From: SAR86 cluster bacterium
Lineage (GTDB): Bacteria; Pseudomonadota; Gammaproteobacteria; Magnimaribacterales; AG-339-G14
DNA: 64,000 bases
Assembly (NCBI GenBank): GCA_023703675.1
Contig: CP097974.1
Span: 519,288-583,287, forward strand
Direction of reading: 5' to 3'
This document shows positions 16,973-17,401 of the stretch, in pieces; position 1 is the first letter of the stretch, and each line of letters opens with the position of its first letter. Under the pieces are notes generated by a model that worked only from the letters and a program-made list of their open reading frames with translations, was not told where the DNA came from and searched no databases. The position numbers and the translations under genes are program-made.

Positions 16973-17049
16973 CGGGGTGTAGCGCAGCCTGGTAGCGCGC
17001 CTGCTTTGGGAGCAGGATGTCGGGGGTTCAAATCCCTCCACCCCGACCA
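16973..17049 (+). tRNA. tRNA-Pro (TGG)
   Basis: A 77-nt cloverleaf with acceptor CGGGGTG/CACCCCG, discriminator A and encoded CCA. The anticodon stem CCTGC/GCAGG encloses TTTGGGA, giving anticodon TGG. It is first of the cluster that leads into tig. A TATGAT at 16946-16951 is a plausible -10. Confidence 0.96.
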
Positions 17050-17067: not shown

Positions 17068-17073
17068 TATAAT
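17068..17073 (+). promoter_or_regulatory. -10 box upstream of the tRNA-like RNA
   Basis: A perfect TATAAT lies 7 nt before a GGGG run (17081), which would be the natural transcription start of the tRNA-like RNA. No good -35 was found. The element suggests that this RNA is transcribed on its own, not only as a spacer in the tRNA operon. Confidence 0.45.
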
Positions 17074-17080
17074 TTACTTT

Positions 17081-17185
17081 GGGGAAGAGGAAACGGAGTT
17101 CCTCTCGGTGTTTTATTGGAAAACATTTGTTTTACGACAAGGAAGTTATCAAACAAGTTTAGGTTCGAATCCTAACCGAGAGCCA
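17081..17185 (+). ncRNA. tRNA-like RNA of unknown function (tRNA-Arg-like acceptor and T-arm, aberrant middle)
   Basis: Acceptor CTCTCGG (17102-17108) pairs perfectly with CCGAGAG (17176-17182). A 5-bp T-arm, TTAGG-TTCGAAT-CCTAA, ends at 17175, and CCA follows directly at 17183-17185, so the discriminator base is missing. The 5' acceptor strand is identical to that of tRNA-Arg 60 nt downstream. The centre is not canonical: a D-like arm TTTT-ATTGG-AAAA, an anticodon-like stem TTTG/CAAG with an 8-nt loop TTTTACGA, and a long variable region with a possible GTT/AAC stem. A 7-bp hairpin (17086-17092 with 17099-17105) in the 5' leader competes with the acceptor stem. It could be a degenerate tRNA, a non-translating tRNA mimic or a divergent class II tRNA. 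Confidence 0.55.
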
Positions 17186-17241
17186 ACACTTGATCACAAG
17201 ACTATTTCAAACCTTTTAGTTAGAATACTTCCATAATTATT

Positions 17242-17318
17242 CTCTCGGTAGCTCAGTTGGATAGAGCATCTGCCTTCTAAGCAGAGGGTCGCAGGTTCGA
17301 ATCCTGCCCGGGAGGCCA
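17242..17318 (+). tRNA. tRNA-Arg (TCT)
   Basis: A 77-nt cloverleaf. Acceptor CTCTCGG pairs with CCGGGAG (one T-G pair), discriminator G, encoded CCA. The anticodon stem TCTGC/GCAGA encloses CTTCTAA, giving anticodon TCT. The T-arm is GCAGG/CCTGC. It lies between the tRNA-like element and tRNA-His, as in the usual gammaproteobacterial Pro-Arg-His cluster. Confidence 0.96.
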
Positions 17319-17324
17319 AAATAT

Positions 17325-17401
17325 GGTGGGCGTAGCTCAGTTGGTAGAGCGCTGGTTTGTGGTACCGGTTGTCGTGGGTTCGAGTCCCATCGTCCACCCC
17401 A
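17325..17401 (+). tRNA. tRNA-His (GTG)
   Basis: The cloverleaf includes the extra 5' G (17325) opposite C73, typical of tRNA-His. Acceptor GTGGGCG pairs with CGTCCAC. The anticodon stem CTGGT/ACCGG encloses TTGTGGT, giving anticodon GTG. The encoded CCA ends at 17401, one nucleotide before the first possible tig start codon, so tRNA and tig mRNA are almost certainly one transcript separated by processing. Confidence 0.96.

Follow-up and report, generated by a model that had tools for sequence, protein, structure and literature searches.

A tRNA-like element in a SAR86 genome, located at 17102-17185 between the genes for tRNA-Pro(TGG) and tRNA-Arg(TCT)-tRNA-His, is most likely a non-translational pseudo-tRNA, an RNA that mimics tRNA. 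Positions refer to the window, the whole 64,000-nucleotide stretch of DNA that was analysed. Comparison across related genomes provides good support for an RNA under selection outside decoding, and this RNA very probably functions in a role other than protein synthesis. We consider it fairly probable that a small structured RNA arose by duplication of tRNA-Arg(TCT) in an ancestor of this SAR86 family, left translation and now acts as a tRNA mimic in trans. The chances appear evenly poised that the elements represent a new tRNA-born RNA family, which lost its decoding arm, acquired two further pairs at the acceptor/D junction, took on a selected trans role outside translation in an abundant ocean bacterium and had its lower arm remodelled differently in each genus. 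The elements would document the conversion of a tRNA gene into another kind of RNA, non-coding and under selection, and the parent and several divergent forms still coexist in present-day lineages. Little dead weight persists in streamlined genomes such as SAR86, hence the persistence of the element points to a function for tRNA mimics in free-living ocean bacteria.

The source genome (G000) is a single contig of 1.19 Mb, is 97% complete and has a GC content of 33%. SAR86 cluster bacteria are the nearest named relatives, and FolD shares 99% identity with that of AG-339-G14. Downstream of tRNA-His, frames resemble tig-clpP-clpX-lon, and a folD-like frame is located upstream of the element locus on the opposite strand (all names from reading translations). 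ARAGORN, proposed as a check by the first-pass annotation, calls a tRNA at 17102-17184 and labels it tRNA-Arg(ACG). The Rfam model RF00005 scores the element at 39.8 bits (cut-off 29) and the neighbouring tRNAs at 62-70 bits. Among the nine homologous elements described below, only those of G000 and G001 (37.8 bits) pass the RF00005 cut-off, and the other seven have no match even at E<=1. Annotation tools mislabel the element as tRNA-Arg(ACG) in G000 and overlook it in most relatives. The sequence 17102-17185 folds better than all but one of 200 shuffles (z -2.8), and the leader and element folded together give no signal over shuffles (z -0.07). A 27-bit match to the Y RNA YrlA (RF02553, cut-off 69) at 17287-17350 corresponds to the tRNA-Arg/tRNA-His junction and was rejected.

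Table 1. Features of the element and its surroundings, with window positions.
Feature	Position	Strand	Basis or remark
tRNA-Pro(TGG), upstream neighbour	16973..17049	+	ARAGORN; Rfam 68.6 bits
TATAAT, candidate -10 hexamer, 7 nt before GGGG (17081-17084)	17068..17073	+	sequence
5' leader starting GGGGA	17081..17101	+	G-run leader of 12-21 nt in 9/9 homologues
Acceptor stem 5' strand, 8 nt, CTCTCGGT	17102..17109	+	8 pairs, formed in every homologue
D-like arm, 5 bp, loop ATTGG	17110..17124	+	two-sided compensatory changes in 4/5 pairs
Lower arm in anticodon-arm position	17126..17157	+	covaries among g1 elements; 3-4 bp stub in g3
T-like arm, 4 bp TAGG/CCTA, loop TTCGAAT	17160..17174	+	stem comparison
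Acceptor stem 3' strand, ACCGAGAG	17175..17182	+	stem comparison
CCA straight after G72, without discriminator base	17183..17185	+	sequence
tRNA-Arg(TCT), downstream neighbour	17242..17318	+	ARAGORN; closest to the element of all other tRNAs in the genome

The element occurs at the same place in nine of 40 family genomes, which belong to two genera (g1 and g3). Three stems are common to all nine elements, namely the acceptor with eight pairs, the D-like arm with five and the T-like arm with four. All 153 of 153 cells for these 17 pairs hold standard pairs; the nine elements stand for about three independent lineages, and with identical rows collapsed, 102 of 102 cells are formed. Aligning the tRNA-Pro to tRNA-Arg gap across relatives, as suggested earlier, recovered homologues with fully paired stems and two-sided compensatory changes in seven of the 17 pairs. 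The covariation score is 0.396 against 0.188 in shuffled data, and none of 500 shuffles matches the observed percentage of pairing, the count of two-sided changes or the covariation score. The paired fraction drops to 30-48% in slid-alignment controls. Because MAFFT columns shift the D-arm of G002 and G006 by one, stems were aligned by hand for these counts. This favours structure somewhat, but in every row the helices run without interruption and have the same length. For alignment A8 and model R2 only, G002 and G006 were shortened by two bases, one in the linker and one preceding the T-stem.

The architecture retains the upper half of a tRNA in modified form. The perfect acceptor strands CTCTCGG (17102-17108) and CCGAGAG (17176-17182), the T-arm TTAGG/CCTAA and the CCA lacking a discriminator base were all correctly read in the first-pass annotation. 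The comparison of homologues favours an 8/4 rather than a 7/5 split between acceptor and T stems, in which U8 pairs with A66 or G66, and this twelve-bp acceptor domain is found in all nine elements, which range from 65 to 85 nt in length. Acceptor pair 4 is either U-A or C-G, and the first A and the GG of the D-loop are constant throughout. The T-loop carries TTC in the four g1 elements as well as in G020 and G021, and is altered in G017, G018 and G019, with a broken loop (CAGGATG) in the last. The 3' end following G72 is CCA without discriminator in G000 and G001, CCU in G002, UCC in G006 and ACC in the g3 elements (ACCA in G019). Since g1 does not conserve a proper N73-CCA end and the T-loop of G019 is broken, it is not certain that the RNA passes through every step of tRNA maturation.

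The lower arm differs most between the genera. In g1, it forms a single hairpin with an outer helix of 7 bp and an inner one of 3 bp, capped by an apical loop of AAGGAA, AUGGAA or UGGA. The G000 arm consists of a 7-bp helix (TTTGTTT/AAACAAG), an inner helix GAC/GTT and the loop AAGGAA. The g1 lower-arm pairs covary between G000/G001 and G002/G006, and the 27 pairs within g1 including this arm are 99% paired. Three of five measures beat all 500 shuffles; the count of two-sided pairs and the further pair types do not, which is expected when only four sequences are compared. In g3, a stub of 3-4 bp stands in its place. The earlier proposal, a 4-bp anticodon stem with an 8-nt loop and a long variable region, is one possible drawing, but the comparison favours the single hairpin, and the proposed stem is broken at two of its four pairs in both G002 and G006. 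Neither the long hairpin nor the stub corresponds to a 5-bp anticodon arm with a 7-nt loop. A long variable arm or a readable anticodon was seen in none of the nine elements, and ARAGORN finds no proper anticodon in the G001 element. Because g1 carries a long hairpin and g3 a stub, no anticodon can be common to all. As far as sequence comparison tells, no anticodon arm is conserved, and what occupies the lower position is a different structure. By structure alone, the element is a tRNA-like structure not used for decoding, as there is no usable anticodon arm. The previous proposal, that the element is no relic but either a maintained mimic or a divergent tRNA, hence finds support for the mimic and none for the divergent tRNA, since the anticodon arm is gone in g3 and replaced by a hairpin in g1.

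The distribution of the element is patchy within both genera. In g1, it is carried by G000, G001, G002 and G006, and G004 has a clean 56-nt gap instead. In g3, G017-G021 carry it, and G016 and G023 do not. Absence or free drift in close relatives had been named as evidence against a maintained element; absences do occur in these three genomes, but wherever the element is present its stems are 100% paired and show no drift. The homologues in G001, G002, G006 and G017-G021 are all located between tRNA-Pro and tRNA-Arg, and the element always lies 31-56 nt downstream of tRNA-Pro. A covariance model built from g3 elements and searched over 203 genomes of the order produced high scores (72-98 bits) in G017-G021 only. 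The next matches were tRNA-Arg(TCT) genes at no more than 35 bits, with the G002 and G006 elements among them at 30-33 bits. A g1-only model at 1e-5 recovered its own four elements and the G017 element (E 2.9e-6), and reported no tRNA and nothing beyond these. It misses the remaining g3 elements at this threshold; these model searches found no element outside g1 and g3 in the 203 genomes, though weaker relatives could escape them. The FolD gene tree has the form (g3,(g1,g4)), with G004 inside g1 beside G000 and G001. The simplest reading is that the element was present in the ancestor of g1, g3 and g4 and lost in g4, in G004 and in G016/G023, based on one gene and assuming no movement between genera. 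With at least three losses, the element is dispensable rather than essential.

The gap between tRNA-Pro and tRNA-Arg accepts different inserts depending on the genus. An SDR-type dehydrogenase gene is found there in g4 (e.g., L043) and a thioesterase-like gene in g2 (e.g., L046, L052), both named from reading the sequence, with inserts of ~460-860 nt. The G023 gap (L041, upstream of tRNA-Arg) spans ~820 nt and contains a short frame for a small secreted-looking protein, which is absent in its relative G016 (gap of 121 nt). In other SAR86 and other gammaproteobacteria outside the family, the two tRNA genes are often closely spaced (1-44 nt in most readable cases) or separated by other DNA. With regard to a viral origin, pattern scans of IMG/VR found no match.

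The adjacent tRNA-Arg(TCT) is the probable parent of the element. For the four elements tested, it is the best match among the other tRNAs of the genome, with a small margin for G000 and G002. As noticed earlier, the acceptor 5' strand is identical in the two, and the tRNA-Arg 3' strand CCGGGAG produces a U-G pair where the element has U-A. Two pairs, 8-66 and 9-26, are new relative to tRNA-Arg(TCT); with these, the acceptor and D stems abut and the acceptor/T split becomes 8/4. We suggest that duplication of the adjacent gene in the ancestor of this SAR86 family created the element, which might be transcribed from the + strand either alone or behind tRNA-Pro. The RNA would be trimmed by tRNA-processing enzymes such as RNase P, 3' exonucleases and possibly the CCA-adding enzyme. 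It might then act off the ribosome as a tRNA mimic that binds protein via its acceptor/T/D domain, and the lower arm would be free to evolve into a hairpin or a stub between lineages.

The U-G pairs at 8-66 in g3 elements are standard on the + strand only and become A-C on the other, which indicates that the RNA corresponds to the + strand. The TATAAT ahead of the G-run had been noticed earlier. Its letters and spacing are as described, but a promoter reading is not upheld: no convincing -35 partner was found, a consensus scan reported no + strand promoter, and the hexamer of G000 and G001 is not conserved in relatives, where the G-run alone is common. A scan for intrinsic terminators produced one weak match within the G000 leader, as expected by chance. 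A switch hairpin between leader and acceptor stem is possible in all homologues and was rejected, as it does not exceed shuffled leaders (P 0.04-0.48). The region 17188-17240 contains a promoter-like AAGACT-17 nt-TAGAAT/TACAAT before tRNA-Arg/His/tig, kept in all family genera whatever the gap holds.

The main alternative is that the element acts in cis, as part of the tRNA-Pro transcript. At the 3' end of this transcript, the fold would serve only as a processing or stability signal, a stop for RNase P or an exonuclease, with no activity in trans. The invariable location 31-56 nt behind tRNA-Pro and the lack of a convincing promoter of its own, with the conserved promoter-like motif for tRNA-Arg/His/tig just downstream, are consistent with this, and selection on pairing rather than sequence suits a processing signal. 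The tRNA-Pro transcript manages without the element in g4, g2, G004 and G016, however, and a simple hairpin would suffice, leaving the retained D-like and T-like arms unexplained. We consider a purely cis-acting element unlikely, even as the strongest of the alternatives. Titration of CsrA by a regulatory RNA, with binding to GGA in its G-rich leader and in either the apical loop or the D-loop, is possible but weak, and quite improbable overall. The g1 lower-arm loops and the g3 D-loop do contain GGA, and csrA is present in 11 of 11 relatives tested. These relatives include both element-bearing and element-free genomes, so CsrA also occurs in genomes that lack the element; the D-loop GGA is inherited from tRNA, and GGA exceeds shuffles only in G000 (5 vs 2.1, P 0.03; others P 0.25-0.5).

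Selection on a tRNA mimic also has to be weighed against decay. A tRNA-Arg pseudogene retained by chance would share the tRNA-Arg origin, the losses in several lineages and the degenerate anticodon arm. At fourfold-degenerate sites of folD, G000 is 36-45% identical to g3 and 38-39% identical to G002/G006, likely near saturation for a genome with 33% GC. All stems were kept over this near-saturated neutral divergence, which argues that the element is not a relic; intact, compensated stems in a streamlined 1.19-Mb genome make chance retention very improbable. A divergent yet decoding tRNA with the Arg(ACG) label is more doubtful still. ARAGORN and RF00005 do call the G000 element, and the whole-genome search of G000 found no tRNA-Arg(CCG) gene. 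The same search found 34 other tRNAs, including normal tRNA-Arg(ACG), tRNA-Arg(TCT) and tRNA-Arg(CCT), and among the 633 Arg codons that 43 long ORFs of the window contain, only 3 are CGG. Judged from this gene content, the tRNA set is full without the element, which is unnecessary for decoding. Furthermore, g3 elements have no anticodon arm, the stem of the ACG loop is broken in G002/G006 and the G001 element receives no proper anticodon from ARAGORN. Equally doubtful is an attachment-site duplication from an integrated element: tRNA genes are common integration sites and other genes were inserted in the same gap in g2 and g4, but what has been retained is a complete cloverleaf plus leader rather than a tRNA 3' end, and no integrase is found among the listed flanking ORFs.

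A non-translational tRNA mimic in SAR86 has partial counterparts among known RNAs. The Y RNA YrlA is likewise a bacterial non-coding tRNA mimic but, unlike the SAR86 element, is permuted, with the T-like arm preceding the D-like arm (Rfam alignment). The mammalian mascRNA and menRNA have a shortened lower arm. They are also short, non-decoding tRNA-like RNAs, matured by RNase P (PMC11693755). In contrast to the SAR86 element, they are cut from eukaryotic long non-coding RNAs, with no common descent. tmRNA is alanylated via G3-U70, whereas pair 3-70 of the SAR86 element is C-G, and neither an mRNA part nor a tag reading frame was seen. ARAGORN reports no tmRNA at the locus, and the element measures only 65-85 nt. 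The tRNA-like domain of tmRNA does resemble it in consisting of the upper half of a tRNA and lacking the anticodon arm (PMC3929946). Allo-tRNAs share the 12-bp acceptor domain in 8/4 arrangement, and they include irregular 8/4 tRNAs of unknown use, some of which cannot translate in E. coli (PMC7609411). Allo-tRNAs have tRNA-Sec features (a long variable arm), SerRS identity and an anticodon (PMC7609411), whereas the SAR86 element, with tRNA-Arg(TCT) as its probable parent, has no variable arm or anticodon. The nearest described case is tRNAOther of Bacillus cereus, likewise a retained tRNA-like gene. It encodes a non-translational pseudo-tRNA that is not found on polysomes and can be deleted without harm, although the deletion alters antibiotic resistance; it retains the anticodon for Trp, and its charging in vitro, with lysine, is poor (PMC3399842). 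Unlike tRNAOther, the SAR86 element has no anticodon arm, is located in an ordinary tRNA cluster rather than beside a genomic island, and shows pair-by-pair covariation.
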